Shown here: piece by piece, positions 42,158 to 50,279 of the stretch
How the letters are laid out: each line of letters begins with the position of its first letter
How positions within the stretch are numbered: position 1 is the stretch's first letter
Assembly (NCBI GenBank): GCA_945861415.1
Contig: CAMAUV010000009.1
Coordinates: forward strand, 1-64,000
From: Akkermansia muciniphila
Lineage (GTDB): Bacteria; Verrucomicrobiota; Verrucomicrobiia; Verrucomicrobiales; V1-33
DNA: 64,000 nt
Reading direction: 5' to 3'
Position numbers and translations under genes: made by a program
The notes under the pieces: generated by a model
Database searches by the model: none
What the model saw: only the letters and a program-made list of their open reading frames with translations
Told to the model about the DNA's origin: nothing

Positions 42158-42426
42158 CAGGGCGAACAGAGCGACAAGGGAAACTTCCGCCTTGAGAGCA
42201 CCAAGCCGACGTCCGGTCTCCGGCGGTTCCCTCTCCGTCTAGGTGAGGCGCAGGCAGGAACACTTCTTCAAACCACCAAAGCTGCTCATGAAGAACGGGT
42301 TATCGAAAAATATTACCGGGAATGCCTGCAATTTCATTGTGTTGGAGATTGCCATGGCAGCCACGCCCAGGTATAATCACAGCCCTAATTCAGTCCGGGC
42401 CGCCCAAAGTTATTGATTCGCCGACC

Positions 42427-45400
42427 ATGAAAAAATTGCTCCTCTTCCTGACTGTCGTCGGTTCGCTGGCGACTTTCTTATATTTCCTCGCGGCGCCCGC
42501 TCAAGAGGAAGACCCGGCAGGCAGCGTGCCCGGCAAGTCGCTCGCTAAAAACAACTCCCTGACGAAGGCAAAGGACCAGTCTGCAAGGCCCTCTAAGCAG
42601 GGCGCAGAGTTTGGTGCGCACGCGCTCCAGGCGGCGAAATCGCCGGATTTTAGAGCCCTGCAAGCTTTCCGTGAGTGGGAACAGCGCTATATGGCGGCGA
42701 CGGTGGAGGAACGTGCGTCCATGGCATCAGAAGGGGCGCACTTGGCAAAAGTACGCCGGCCGGAAATGAAAAAGCTGATCGTGCAGAATCCACGGTTGGC
42801 GCTGGAAATTGCGGTGCGTCCGGTGGTGCGGCAGGACCTGCCTGCGGAGGTAGTGGCGGAACTAGAGAAGCTTGTTAGTAAGAGCGGTGATTTCAAAGCT
42901 TACTTTGGCCGTCCGCAGGAGGGCCTGACCCTGCCGGAGGACGCGGAGCTGGTGATGCGCTACTTTGAAACGGCGGAAGGCGACAGCTTTAAAGCCCGGG
43001 TCTTTGGGAATATGCGGGAGGCCGTCAGCCGCAAGGGTGTGCCATTCCGCGGCGTGGCAATGGACCGGGAACTGGCCGTGGCGGAAAATCCAGTGCGGCA
43101 GATGGAAGCTGGGGAGAGAATTGCTGCAGGCACACAGATTGACGAAACGTGCCCGGTTTCAAGTATCAGGACACCCACCAGCTCGGAGACACCTATTGAG
43201 GTGGAGCCGGAAACTCCTATCGTGGAATTGGGCGGGCGCATTATCCGTCTGTGCAACGGCACGCATGTCCACTTGTTTGGCGAATCCCAGCTTTGGGCCA
43301 TCGGCGGCCCCGGCGGCGCAGGCAATTTCCTCGACAACCACCCCGGCACTTCTTCCGAAGCGATCGGGAATTTCCGCTGCCTCTACATCCGGGTTACTTA
43401 TCCGGACCAGATGCGCGCTCCGAACACCGAGGGCCGCGCCTACAGTGACATGCGGAATGTTTCGCGGTTCTACCTTGAGAATTCGTTTGGTAAGCTGACG
43501 ACCACTACCTCCGTGACCCCGCTCATTGTGATGCCGCATACTAAAGCGTGGTACATTGCCAAGGACAGCGAGGTGGACGGACTGGGCCTTGTGCACAGCC
43601 ATGCACGGGAAGAGGCCCGCAAACTGGGATACGACAACACCAAGTTCAACTGCACCATTGTCCGCGTGAACGAAGGTCCGCGGCTGAGCGGCATTTCGTG
43701 GGGCGGTGGAGACAGCGTGTGGGTTTCATGGGACGGCATGGACGTGCTCAACCATGAATGTGGCCACTCGCTAGGGCGCAATCACGCCAACTTTTGGGAG
43801 ACCACCGACGGATCGGCCATCGGCTTGGGGGAAGACCGGGAATATGGAAACACTCTCGACGTCATGGGCGGGGGCAGCGGATTTGGGGCTCACTACAACA
43901 GCTACAGTAAACGAAGCCTCGGCTGGCTTCAGGACGGCTACACTCACCGCCCCGGCACCACGCCGAACTACAATGGCGTCTACCGGATATATGCTTATGA
44001 TCAGCCTCGGCTGGAGGAGGAGAAACGCTACTCGCTGCGAGTGGACAAGGACGCCCAGCGCCGATTCTATCTTGAATACCATCCCGCCATCGGCGGCAAA
44101 TGGCCCAACCAGATGGTTCTGATGATGAGTGGTCTGGGCAGCAACGCGGGACACCTTGTGGACACCACGCCCGGCAGCGTCGGCGGCAAGGGCGACGGCG
44201 GCATCCAGATCGGTCGCACGTTCAGTGACTTTGAAAGCGATACGCACTTCACCGTGCTGAGCAAGAACGGCACCAATCCCGAGTCGCTGGATGTGGCGCT
44301 AATGCGGGGGCCATTCCCCGGCAATCTACCTCCTGTGGTGAGCCTCGCCGCCTCTGCCGCCACGGCGGCCGTAAATGGCAGCGTCACTTTCACCGCGAGC
44401 GCCAGCGACCCCAATGGAGACACGCTCGCCTATCACTGGGATTTCAGCGACGGCTATGTGGCGGCGAACTCCTCCAGCATCACGCGGAATTTTACCGCCA
44501 CGGACCAGCAGACTATCGGGCTGACGGTGAGCGACATGAGGGGGGGTAAGGTTAGGGCACACACTTATCTTACTATTGGCAATCCCGGCCGCGTCATGGT
44601 CAGCGGACGCATCACCGCCGCCGGCCAGCCGCTCCCGGGTGTATTAGTGATCAGTGACACGGACAAGTATTGCTTTACTGATACAAACGGCGATTATGTG
44701 CTCGCCGACCTCCAGACGGGCTTCCGGACCCTGACGGCTTCGCTCACCGGCTACACGTTCACACCGGGCTTTACCAATCCTCTGAGCGGCACACTCGCGG
44801 GCACGGCGCCGACCGTGACGGGGCTGGACTGGACTGCCGACAGCGTTAGCGAAGTCACCCTGACCGCTACCGACGCCGCAGAAGGCGGAGCAAGCGGCAG
44901 CTTTGTCATCACCCGCACCGGCGATACTGCGGCTGCGCTGAATGTGACCGTGGCCCCCGTCGGCGGTTCGGCGGGGAAGACTACGGATTACACTTTCTCT
45001 CCCGACTACAGTGCCAGCGGGAGTATGAACACGTTCACAATTCCCTCCGGACAGGCTTCGCTCATGGTCACAGTCGTCGCGGTGAATGACACCGCGCAGG
45101 AAGGCCCGGAGACGGTCATGCTCCAGCTCGCAGCCGGTGCCTATCAAGTTCGCACAAGCGGTCTCGCCTCGCTCACTATTGCTGACAACGACACCATCCG
45201 CCCCGTGGTGAGCATCGTCGCCACCGACATCTACGCTGCCGAGACGGCCGGCGACATGGGCACGTTCCTTGTGAGCCGCACCGGTGACAAGGGGTCCGCG
45301 TTGACTATTTCTCTTACCTACAGCGGCACGGCCACGAATGGCCCGGACTACGCTCTTCCCGCACAGGTGACCATCCCTGCCGGCCAGTCCTTCACACTGC

Positions 45401-48400
45401 TCACGTTCACTCCGGCAGACGACACCGCGCAGGAAACTCCTGAGGACGTGACCGTGAGGGTCGCGGTGAATGCCGCTTACGTCGTCAGCACCATCGCCGC
45501 CGCCGCCAGTGTGACCATTACCGACAACGATTTAGCAACGCTGAATGTCACTGCGCTGGATGACACTTTGAACGAGGCCGGGCGCGGCACGGGCCTTGTA
45601 GTCATTTCCCGCACTGGCAGCCTCTCGGCACCGCTCACGGTTTACTACGGACTCAGCGGTAGCGCACTTCATGGCACGGATTACGCGGCGCTGCCGGGGC
45701 AGGTCACTTTCCCTGCAGGAGTCGAGAGCGTGCCAGTCTTCCTCACACCGTACGACGACGATCAGGGCGAAGCGGAGGAAAGCATCACCTTCCATCTCGC
45801 GCTCTACGATAACGCCTATACGCTGGGGCCGAATTTCACGGCCGTCCTCAACATCAAAGACAATGCCGACCCGCCATTGTTGACCGTCACTGCCAACAGC
45901 GCTTCCGAGCCTTCGACCAGCGGTACCTTTACCTTTACGGCGTTTGGTAACGTCAGCGGAAATGTAGCAGTGAACTATTCCATTAGCGGCACCGCCAGCG
46001 GAGGATCAGACTTCACGTTGCCCTCCGGAACGGTGAACATCGCGGGGACTTCCACGGACACAAAAGGCGTCTCCGCTACCGTGAGTATTCCCATTCTCAA
46101 CGATGCGCTGCCGGAGGACACGGAGACCGTCGTTCTGACCATCACCTCTGGCGCGGGCTATGCGGTTTACAATGATGGTCAGGCCACCATGCGCATCAAA
46201 GACGATGACTCCGAACCCGTGGCCGTCAGCGCTAGCAGCGGCAGTCTGAAAGAACCCTCGGACGACAGCGCATTCTACATTTCCCGCGTCGGAAGCACTG
46301 GCGAACTTGCTGTGAGCTACGCTATGAGCGGTAGTGCCACCAACGGCATAGACTACAGGATTCTCAGCGGCAGAGCGGTCATACCCGATGGCGCTACAGG
46401 TGTGGATGTCGGTGTCACTACCACGGATGACACCCTTAGGGAAGGCGCAGAGACCGTCATCATGACTCTGAACAAAGGAGCAGGTTACGGAATAGAAGTG
46501 GCCCAAGCGACGCTTTACCTCGAAGACAACGACCTGCCTTCCAGTCTGCCCTCCATGGGCTTCACCTCCGCCACCGGAGCCACCACTGAGATGCCGGATG
46601 CGACCATTGGAGAGTATCGCGATATCCCCGTCACCCTTCCCTCCGCCATGACGGGTACAGTAACCATGGACTACGTGGCCCGCGGCGGCACCGCCACCGG
46701 CGATGACATCGACTGGAGCTTCGCGGATGCGGCCAGCGGCAACGCGCTCATCAGCCGCGGCACCCTCACTTTCCCGCCCGGGACGACGACCCAGAATGTG
46801 CGCATCCGGGTGCGCAATGACGGCGTCATCGAAGGCAGCGAGACCATCATCATTGACCTGATCAATCTCAATACGGGAGGAAGCGGCGTGCGCTTCAGCA
46901 GCACGCGCTATCGCCATACCCTTACTGTGACGGACAATGCTGCGGCGAACCCGGTGCCGCGCGTGAGTTTTCTCACCGCAGCCACCACCCGACAGGAAAG
47001 CGACGGCACAGAGCCGCTTCTGATTGCCGCCCTGGACACTGCCAGCGCTTCCACTGTCACGGTGAACTATACGCTCGGAGGCACTGCCACCGCCGGCAGC
47101 GACTACGCACTGGCTCCAGTAACGCTGACATTTATTGCTGGAGAGACCTTTAAGAGGGTTCCACTCACCATCATCTCCGATGGTGTCACAGAGCTGGCGG
47201 AAACCATCATCGTAACTCTCAGTTCCCCAGCCGGAGCGGTCATCGGCAGCATCCCGGCGCACACCATCACTGTTGCGGATGTAAATGTCGCCGCGGTCAG
47301 CGCCAGTGCCAATTCAGCCACCGTGGAAGAGGACAGCAGTCAGAGCGCGGTCTTTACCATTACACGCACGGGAGGCGCTACTGTTTTCCCACTAACCGTT
47401 AGCTACACCATCAGCGGCACTGCCTCTGCGGGGGCGGACTATAACGCGCTGAGCGGTAGTGTTACGCTGGCAGGCGGCCAACTGAGCGCAGCGCTCAACA
47501 TTACTCTCTTGCCGGACACCGATCAGGAGAGCGGCGAAACCGTAATCCTCACGATCAATGACACCGCGGATTACAATCCCGGAGCAACACCAGTGGCCAC
47601 CGTCACCATCCTCGACGATGACGCTCCGCCGGTAATCACCTACGTGACCCCTACGGCTGCCAGTGTGGCCATCCCGCAAGGCGTGGGGCTGATGGCGGAG
47701 GTCAATGCAACGCGTGAACTTCCCTCTGGCAGCTCCCTCGCTGCGGTGATGTGGAGCTCCGTCAGTGGCCCCGGAACGGTCACTTTTGAAACCCCTGACA
47801 GCCGCCGCACCGCAGTGACTTTTGATGCCGCCGGCACCTATGTCCTCCGGGCCAGTTCTACCCACGGCATTACGGTCGATGCGGATGTCACCGTGACTGT
47901 AGTGGCTCATGCGATTACCCAAAACTTCACGGCTGCCCGGTTTGGCAATGCTCCGGTGACTGCAGGGTTCACTTACACTGAGGCCACGGGCACCTACAAT
48001 CTAACCACCGGGGGCAGCAGCATTCCCAGCACCGGCACAGAGGATCAGTTCCTCTTTGCCGGGCAGGCGATTACAGGAGACTGCAGCATCACGGCCCGTT
48101 TCGTGAGTCTCGGCATCGGCGGCAGTAATACATCGGACAACCGTTCGGGTGTGATGATCCGTGAAACCCTGAACAGCGGCGGAAGTCCTCACGCCTTTGT
48201 CGGCATCACTAAAACGCCTGCCGCGCGCTTCATCAGCCGTGCGGTCACAGGAACCACCAGCACGAATACCACAGGCATCGGTAGTTTCCCATACTGGGTG
48301 CGGATGGTTCGCGGCGGTAATGTGTTCACCGGCGAGACAGCACCCGACGTCAACGGCGCCCCCGGCACATGGACCCAGCTGGGTAGCCGAACCATCGCCA

Positions 48401-49197
48401 TGCCGTCCGTAGCCCTCATCGGAATCGCCGGGGCCAGCGGCAGCAGCAGCGGCAACACTGCCGCCGCCGTGGTTGTGGATAATGTCCGCATTCTCCCCCA
48501 TGCCCCGATTTCCAATCTCGGTGTCAATGTGGACGCCGGTGCCGCCCTGAGCGGTTCCGGGCCATGGAATCTGGATGCCACCGTAAGCGATGACAATCAG
48601 CCCGACCCTGCTTCGCTGAGCACCGGCTGGCTCTCCCTCAGCGGCCCGGCCACTGCCACCTTCCAGAATGCCGGATCAGTTGATACCGGTGTGTTCTTCC
48701 CAACTTCAGGCACCTATCGCCTGCGCCTCACCGCAGATGACAGTCAGGTCACTACCTTTGATGACACTACGGCGGTCATCAGCACCCAAACGCCGATCGA
48801 AGCATGGCGGGCCGCGCAGTTCGGAGTCAACGCCACCAATCCCGCCATCGCCGGCAATCTGGTGGATTTTGAAAACGACGGACTGACAAACATTGTCGAA
48901 TACGCCCTAGCCAGCACACCTCAGACCAGCGTCGCGGCCCACCTCCCCGTCTCCACCACCGACGGCGCCACTATTACCTACACCTACCGCCTGAATCTTG
49001 ATGCCAAGGACGTTTCCGTGGAGCTTCAGGCCTCACCGGATATGACCAACTGGAGCAATACCCCGGCCACGCTCAACACTCTTAGTGACGATGGCCATGT
49101 GCGCGTCATCCAGGCCACCATTCCTGCCTCGGCGAACCGCCGCTTCATCCGCCTCAACGTCACCCATTCCCATCAGCTAAATCCATGGCGCAAGTAG
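42427..49197 (+). CDS. Giant secreted metzincin (M11-like) protease with PKD and about 8 Calx-beta domains
   Basis: Signal peptide; HECGHSLGRNH (HExxHxxGxxH) with downstream LDVMGGGS Met-turn; PKD-like domain; repeated Calx-beta units; secreted C-terminal module. Confidence 0.88.
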   Translation: MKKLLLFLTVVGSLATFLYFLAAPAQEEDPAGSVPGKSLAKNNSLTKAKDQSARPSKQGAEFGAHALQAAKSPDFRALQAFREWEQRYMAATVEERASMASEGAHLAKVRRPEMKKLIVQNPRLALEIAVRPVVRQDLPAEVVAELEKLVSKSGDFKAYFGRPQEGLTLPEDAELVMRYFETAEGDSFKARVFGNMREAVSRKGVPFRGVAMDRELAVAENPVRQMEAGERIAAGTQIDETCPVSSIRTPTSSETPIEVEPETPIVELGGRIIRLCNGTHVHLFGESQLWAIGGPGGAGNFLDNHPGTSSEAIGNFRCLYIRVTYPDQMRAPNTEGRAYSDMRNVSRFYLENSFGKLTTTTSVTPLIVMPHTKAWYIAKDSEVDGLGLVHSHAREEARKLGYDNTKFNCTIVRVNEGPRLSGISWGGGDSVWVSWDGMDVLNHECGHSLGRNHANFWETTDGSAIGLGEDREYGNTLDVMGGGSGFGAHYNSYSKRSLGWLQDGYTHRPGTTPNYNGVYRIYAYDQPRLEEEKRYSLRVDKDAQRRFYLEYHPAIGGKWPNQMVLMMSGLGSNAGHLVDTTPGSVGGKGDGGIQIGRTFSDFESDTHFTVLSKNGTNPESLDVALMRGPFPGNLPPVVSLAASAATAAVNGSVTFTASASDPNGDTLAYHWDFSDGYVAANSSSITRNFTATDQQTIGLTVSDMRGGKVRAHTYLTIGNPGRVMVSGRITAAGQPLPGVLVISDTDKYCFTDTNGDYVLADLQTGFRTLTASLTGYTFTPGFTNPLSGTLAGTAPTVTGLDWTADSVSEVTLTATDAAEGGASGSFVITRTGDTAAALNVTVAPVGGSAGKTTDYTFSPDYSASGSMNTFTIPSGQASLMVTVVAVNDTAQEGPETVMLQLAAGAYQVRTSGLASLTIADNDTIRPVVSIVATDIYAAETAGDMGTFLVSRTGDKGSALTISLTYSGTATNGPDYALPAQVTIPAGQSFTLLTFTPADDTAQETPEDVTVRVAVNAAYVVSTIAAAASVTITDNDLATLNVTALDDTLNEAGRGTGLVVISRTGSLSAPLTVYYGLSGSALHGTDYAALPGQVTFPAGVESVPVFLTPYDDDQGEAEESITFHLALYDNAYTLGPNFTAVLNIKDNADPPLLTVTANSASEPSTSGTFTFTAFGNVSGNVAVNYSISGTASGGSDFTLPSGTVNIAGTSTDTKGVSATVSIPILNDALPEDTETVVLTITSGAGYAVYNDGQATMRIKDDDSEPVAVSASSGSLKEPSDDSAFYISRVGSTGELAVSYAMSGSATNGIDYRILSGRAVIPDGATGVDVGVTTTDDTLREGAETVIMTLNKGAGYGIEVAQATLYLEDNDLPSSLPSMGFTSATGATTEMPDATIGEYRDIPVTLPSAMTGTVTMDYVARGGTATGDDIDWSFADAASGNALISRGTLTFPPGTTTQNVRIRVRNDGVIEGSETIIIDLINLNTGGSGVRFSSTRYRHTLTVTDNAAANPVPRVSFLTAATTRQESDGTEPLLIAALDTASASTVTVNYTLGGTATAGSDYALAPVTLTFIAGETFKRVPLTIISDGVTELAETIIVTLSSPAGAVIGSIPAHTITVADVNVAAVSASANSATVEEDSSQSAVFTITRTGGATVFPLTVSYTISGTASAGADYNALSGSVTLAGGQLSAALNITLLPDTDQESGETVILTINDTADYNPGATPVATVTILDDDAPPVITYVTPTAASVAIPQGVGLMAEVNATRELPSGSSLAAVMWSSVSGPGTVTFETPDSRRTAVTFDAAGTYVLRASSTHGITVDADVTVTVVAHAITQNFTAARFGNAPVTAGFTYTEATGTYNLTTGGSSIPSTGTEDQFLFAGQAITGDCSITARFVSLGIGGSNTSDNRSGVMIRETLNSGGSPHAFVGITKTPAARFISRAVTGTTSTNTTGIGSFPYWVRMVRGGNVFTGETAPDVNGAPGTWTQLGSRTIAMPSVALIGIAGASGSSSGNTAAAVVVDNVRILPHAPISNLGVNVDAGAALSGSGPWNLDATVSDDNQPDPASLSTGWLSLSGPATATFQNAGSVDTGVFFPTSGTYRLRLTADDSQVTTFDDTTAVISTQTPIEAWRAAQFGVNATNPAIAGNLVDFENDGLTNIVEYALASTPQTSVAAHLPVSTTDGATITYTYRLNLDAKDVSVELQASPDMTNWSNTPATLNTLSDDGHVRVIQATIPASANRRFIRLNVTHSHQLNPWRK
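44840..47640 (+). repeat. About eight tandem Calx-beta domain repeats (protein-level)
   Basis: Recurrent pattern TxxE...G.F.ITRTG....LTV.Y..SGTA..G.DY..L.G.V....G......I.I..D...E..ETV.LT........A..TI.DND. Confidence 0.8.
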
Positions 49198-49334: not shown

Positions 49335-50279
49335 TCACGGGTTCAGCGCTGCCTTGATTCGGATGAACCGGATAGGGCTGGCTACCACGCTGCGCCACTC
49401 AATGCGCTCGGCACCTGAGCCGTCGTAAAGTGGGCGGCGGGAGAATTCGGTGTAATCTATGCTCGCGGTCCATGGCGCGCCGGGGTTGACGGAGAATTCG
49501 GGAGCCATGCTGAATCCGGGCACAACACCGCGGCGCCCATGCCAGATCACATAGATAGTTGTGCCGTCGGATTCGCCCGGTAGGGCGATGCACTGAGGCA
49601 GGCCCGGGATCACTCCTGAGAGCGGGGCTGAGCTGCCGTGGGCGAAATGCTGGAGGACTTTGCGTTCGTCGGGCAGGAGAGAGTTGCTACTTTTGCTGAG
49701 GTCTCCGAAGGCCCACTGCTCCCAGTAGTCCGGCAGCTTATCGCCATCGGTGTCTGTGATGGTGGCGGCGGTGGTGAGAAATTGTTTTACCGTATTGTAG
49801 TTTGCCGCCACGCCGAGGTCCATGGAGGTGAGATTAAAGGCGGCTAGTTTGCGGTTCAGGGGATCGAGAATGATGACATCCCGGTAGAGCGCGCCCCATG
49901 CGCTTTGCATGTTCACCGCCGGGGTATCGCGCAGCCATGTGAGCGGCCTGGCAGCGTACATGCGGGCGTCGGTGCCGTCGGCGATTTCGTTGATACCGAT
50001 GATGTCCACGGGCAGGCCGGTCGTATCCTTCAAATCGTTGTAGATCGCGGCAAGGTAGCCAAACTGGCTGCGGCAGTAGCTTCACGTCTCGCGGCCAAAA
50101 TACCATGCGGTAACTTGGTGCTGGTAGTTGCGCGGAGAGACGGGCGTAGTTGTAACGCGGTAGCGGTTGGATAGGGTGTTTACCTCATTAAGCGAAAAGT
50201 CCGACAGTGGATCGATGGCGTGCGCCGGGAGAGCAGTGAAGATGAACAGGAAAAAAAGGAACTGGAGTAGTGGTTTCAC
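49335..50279 (-). CDS. Putative secreted selenoprotein, thioredoxin-fold with UxxC, SelP-like N-terminal layout plus DxDGDxLPDxWE module
   Basis: ORF-track entries 50082-50279 and 49335-50033 are in the same frame, joined through TGA at 50084-50082: ...QHQVTAWYFGRET[U]SYCRSQFGYLAAIYNDLKDTTGLPVDIIGINEIADG...; signal peptide MKPLLQFLFFLFIFTALPAHA. Confidence 0.65.
50057..50069 (-). promoter_or_regulatory. Candidate bacterial SECIS hairpin in coding RNA, downstream of UGA
   Basis: RNA: UGA-AGCUACUGCCGC-AGCCA-GUU-UGGCU; perfect 5-bp stem, loop beginning with G, stem starting 12 nt after UGA. Confidence 0.5.

Follow-up and report, generated by a model that had tools for sequence, protein, structure and literature searches.

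We analysed a minus-strand locus in a 64,000-nucleotide stretch of DNA (hereafter the window) from a draft genome of 4.66 Mb (94% complete, 113 contigs). The frame starts with GTG at position 50279, ends with TGA at 49337–49335, and contains 314 codons with one internal stop, a TGA at 50084–50082. When this codon is read through, the translation around residue 66 is ...VTAWYFGRET-U-SYC-RSQFGYL..., where U is selenocysteine (Sec). Coordinates and translation bear out the preliminary description of a single frame interrupted by one TGA. ORF calling yielded just a downstream piece of 232 amino acids starting with TTG at 50033, in agreement with the expectation that gene callers would split or truncate the gene. 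The features of the locus are summarized in Table 1.

Table 1. Features of the read-through gene in the window.
Feature	Positions	Strand	Basis
Predicted complete selenoprotein gene by read-through, 314 aa, GTG start, TGA final stop	49335..50279	-	Homologues align over the whole length
Probable Sec signal peptide (VKPLLQFLFFLFIFTALPAHA)	50217..50279	-	Judged by eye; homologues also start with a hydrophobic leader
Thioredoxin-fold domain, NCBIfam NF053656 redoxin_TUGYCR	49761..50216	-	156 bits; AlphaFold2 model and Foldseek
In-frame TGA, predicted selenocysteine codon 66, Sec of UxxC	50082..50084	-	TGA in 25 homologous genes, Cys in 7
Cys69 codon (TGC), probable resolving cysteine of UxxC	50073..50075	-	Invariant in homologue alignments A1–A3
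bSECIS-like hairpin GCAGCCA-GUU-UGGCUAC	50055..50071	-	Apical loop 17 nt after UGA; pairing counts and covariation in the family
C-terminal tail: D-x-D-x-D Ca-binding-like motif (DTDGDKLPDYWE) and beta-rich verrucomicrobial C-terminal domain	49338..49760	-	Conserved in homologues

The protein is predicted to be exported, to either the periplasm or the cell surface. The motif of its C-terminal tail is also present in large, unrelated proteins from the phylum, which suggests a general surface or export tail, possibly with a role in retention or display; TSP3_bac gave a weak match in one homologue. The convergent neighbour on the plus strand (42322–49197) encodes a protein of 2291 amino acids with Calx-beta and PKD domains, a metalloprotease-like HExxH motif (HECGHSLGRNH) near the N-terminus, and, as judged by eye, a C-terminal tail of the same kind.

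An in-frame TGA within UxxC or CxxU, with at least 40 and at least 60 open codons on either side, occurred nine times in the window and is by itself not rare. The TGA at codon 66 was the only one of the nine flanked on each side by a long open frame (150 and 248 codons), and it goes beyond chance because it is conserved, the same codon being TGA in 24 further homologues and Cys in seven. Within the same taxonomic family, three genomes (G393, G394, and G395) had TGA at codon 66 and one (G391) had TGT (Cys). A class-wide profile search added seven TGA genes and one Cys gene (G430), and an order-wide search added 14 TGA copies, giving 25 TGA genes including that of the window. Two of the Cys forms were found in Verrucomicrobiota genomes (G391 and G430) and five in Planctomycetota from a wider genome-contig collection. 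The stop at the active-site codon was TGA in all 25 genes, never TAA or TAG, and the second active-site residue, Cys69, was invariant in the alignments. When the Sec and Cys labels were placed on a 25-row tree, three changes were needed. The dN/dS values against the nearest homologue were about 0.25 before the TGA and 0.28 after it, which indicates purifying selection on both sides and a gene that is not otherwise decayed. The homologues thus carry Sec-TGA or Cys exactly where the preliminary description had placed the TGA, as the leading residue of UxxC in a thioredoxin fold.

The distribution of the family was examined with several searches. A plain protein scan of the wider genome-contig collection gave no match, and with a 12-row profile the same collection gave Planctomycetota genes of the Cys type alone; the back-translated pattern was probably built with Cys codons, so that Sec forms there may have escaped the search. 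Full-length searches across the phylum gave matches confined to the C-terminal calcium-motif tail, and a phylum-wide profile search returned short C-terminal-motif matches and ordinary thioredoxin or nucleoredoxin-like proteins, with no family members. No match to the family was found in the plasmid collection searched, and no conserved gene neighbourhood was found among 13 genomes compared. Directly upstream of the Cys homologue in G391 lies an exported thioredoxin-like gene (L037, ATWCASC), a possible partner. Three genomes of the same genus (G397, G398, and G399) had selA and tRNA-Sec and no copy of the family gene; the family is therefore patchily distributed. In G472, which has selA and tRNA-Sec, the similarity of one homologue (L055) ends just before the active site (FYFATAS, followed by unrelated sequence), and this copy is a broken gene or a misassembly.

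We searched the source genome for the four components of Sec insertion, and all were present. A tRNA-Sec gene (selC) with the anticodon TCA scored above the Rfam cut-off, SelB scored 298 bits (cut-off 242), and SelA (484 bits) and SelD (351 bits) were both above their curated cut-offs. The selD gene (L031, G000:C76) itself contains one in-frame TGA, which falls in the active-site segment VDCAGUASKLAP and has a strong GC-rich hairpin after it. SelD of this genome is probably a selenoprotein, so that the window protein is very probably not the only selenoprotein of the organism. Among 22 genomes searched, selA was present in all 11 Sec-form genomes, with a partial match at a contig edge in G394, and gave no match in both Cys-form genomes checked (G391, 86% complete; G430, 96% complete). 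No tRNA-Sec above the Rfam cut-off was found in the Sec-form genomes G393 (87% complete) and G394 (77% complete).

The sequence after the UGA was compared with the published rules for bacterial SECIS elements (loop of 3–9 nt with G in the first two places, spacing of 16–37 nt, stem of 4–16 bp, and MFE ≤ −7.5). The hairpin of the window formed six of seven pairs, five of them contiguous, with an MFE of −8.7 kcal/mol, and its 3-nt loop starting with G, spacing of 17 nt, and contiguous stem of five pairs agree with these rules. Taken alone it was unexceptional against redraws of synonymous codons (P = 0.19), and the case for the hairpin rests on the family, not on the window sequence alone. A GUU triplet stood at the loop position between the hairpin arms, from 17 nt past the UGA, in all 25 Sec genes. 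In these genes, 159 of the 175 stem pairs were formed, compared with 100.8 ± 5.4 when synonymous codons were redrawn with the protein kept, although relatedness among the sequences and a codon table derived from this window mean that such counts are not independent trials. The covariation score was 0.560, compared with 0.164 ± 0.031 for shuffled alignments and at most 0.112 for slid versions, and five of the seven stem pairs had changes on both sides. The hairpin was absent from the seven Cys genes, where 25 of 49 pairs were formed, near the null value of 19.9 ± 2.6. The Gln codon that contains the loop G was CAG in 25/25 Sec genes and CAA in 6/7 Cys genes.

These results indicate that UGA at codon 66 of the window gene is read as Sec, a reading to which we assign a probability of about 0.95. 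The suggestion of a probable selenoprotein made in the preliminary description thus gains from the Sec machinery of the genome, the Sec and Cys homologues, the conserved SECIS-like hairpin, and purifying selection. If the TGA were instead a real stop in a decaying gene, or if the downstream part were a separate gene starting from the TTG at 50033, the stop codon and the frame split by gene callers would be accounted for. However, a true stop would hardly recur as TGA at one active-site position throughout the 25 genes, with the Cys homologues intact and dN/dS well below 1 on both sides, and a separate downstream gene would begin too late to include the active site or the first strand; we regard this alternative as extremely improbable. 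An error that turned TGC or TGT into TGA is conceivable in a draft genome, but separate assemblies supply 24 further genes with the identical TGA, and the SECIS-like hairpin is conserved, which makes such an error the least credible of the explanations considered.

The thioredoxin-fold domain matched the NCBIfam model NF053656.1 (redoxin_TUGYCR, "TUGYCR motif thioredoxin fold (seleno)protein") with 156.3 bits (cut-off 100) over residues 26–170, and all five members scanned and four more homologues also matched. Sec or Cys stands at the same motif position in the model and in the window protein, whose motif is TUSYCR instead of TUGYCR; the model itself gives no function. The gene had been described as unannotated, which holds for simple ORF calling but not for the family, since this model already covers it. 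A 2026 review (PMC13188914) tabulates 119 prokaryotic selenoprotein families, and redoxin_TUGYCR is not among them; a full-text literature search on the NF053656 family name found no paper. As far as the literature was searched, the family is catalogued by NCBI but undescribed, and the window gene is a new member.

The AlphaFold2 model of the domain alone had a mean pLDDT of 74 and a pTM of 0.72, whereas that of the full-length protein was poor (pLDDT 48). The best PDB matches of the domain model in Foldseek were ResA, DsbE/DsbF, and other extracytoplasmic thiol-disulfide oxidoreductases, with TM-scores of approximately 0.5. The modelled fold is nearest to the TlpA/ResA/DsbE type, with which the window protein shares the predicted export and the place of the first Cys of CxxC; it differs in having Sec for this Cys and Arg for the cis-Pro, in a comparison based on a low-depth model with a TM-score near 0.5. 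Arg occupied the cis-Pro column of these relatives in 16 of 17 rows of the family, so the chemistry may differ from the classical TlpA-type reaction. The Prx-like thiol:disulfide oxidoreductase selenoproteins (PF00578, UxxC) listed in table 1 of PMC13188914 likewise combine an AhpC-TSA/Redoxin superfamily fold with UxxC, whereas the window protein adds a signal peptide and the verrucomicrobial tail. Against AhpC-TSA (PF00578) the window protein scored 11.7 bits, below the gathering cut-off of 26, and a Planctomycetota homologue (L060) passed with 32.8 bits.

Two other functions were weighed against that of a thiol-disulfide oxidoreductase. The preliminary description had drawn attention to the N-terminal domain of selenoprotein P (SelP), and a bacterial counterpart of this domain would carry or store selenium and not act as a catalyst. 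The part of the resemblance that stands is the shared thioredoxin fold, the place of UxxC, and export, and the later segments are similarly spaced; human SelP, in a sequence checked by its PF04592 match alone, scored 13.2 bits against the family profile, compared with 7.5 for its best shuffled copy. However, TlpA (15.7 bits) and nucleoredoxin-like proteins (30.2 bits) scored higher, so that the similarity is no greater than to other redoxins. SelP_N (PF04592, cut-off 23.2 bits) gave no match at the family gene in 13 genomes and none in five members scanned, and the window family has one Sec per protein and lacks the Sec-rich C-terminal tail. Membership in the selenoprotein P family was rejected on the Pfam result and the order of these scores, and a carrier or storage role is very improbable. 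A peroxidase, in which Sec66 would reduce peroxides outside the cytoplasm with the aid of the Arg that replaces the cis-Pro, is the less remote of the two. We retained it because peroxiredoxins also have Arg in the cis-Pro region, and the best Pfam match of the Planctomycetota members is AhpC-TSA. We nevertheless consider a peroxidase unlikely, since the fold matches are thiol-disulfide oxidoreductases, the peroxiredoxin TxxC/U signature is missing, and Sec leads the motif instead of standing second in it (review table, PMC13188914).

The product of the window gene is thus most likely a Sec/Cys thiol-disulfide oxidoreductase that is exported and carries a C-terminal tail common among Verrucomicrobiota. 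Sequence evidence supports the decoding of UGA as Sec as well as the hairpin, the fold, and the exchange between Sec and Cys, and the thiol-disulfide oxidoreductase reaction, which we infer from fold and motif, is probable to a lesser degree than the Sec reading. In the proposed mechanism, SelB with Sec-tRNA-Sec would bind the hairpin located 17 nt past the UGA, so that Sec is inserted at residue 66, and the signal peptide would direct export of the selenoprotein. Sec66 would then attack or donate to a substrate disulfide in the manner of TlpA/ResA-like oxidoreductases, and Cys69 would resolve the intermediate as a Sec–Cys bridge. A broader and more tentative proposal, which we put forward with some doubt, is that these exported selenoproteins form a family that is essentially unstudied and occurs widely but patchily across Verrucomicrobiota, with Sec as the usual form, the GUU-loop SECIS as its own conserved element, and an Arg in place of the cis-Pro that suggests a reaction unlike ordinary TlpA-type disulfide exchange.

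The sequence evidence for the selenoprotein reading is unusually clean. The extracytoplasmic redox capacity of these bacteria would be under-annotated, because gene callers halve the protein and drop its active site. Moreover, the 25 Sec and seven Cys versions form a natural experiment, in which the residue switched approximately three times and the SECIS hairpin accompanies Sec alone. With this set, direct tests of the rules of Sec insertion and of the benefit of Sec relative to Cys may be possible.
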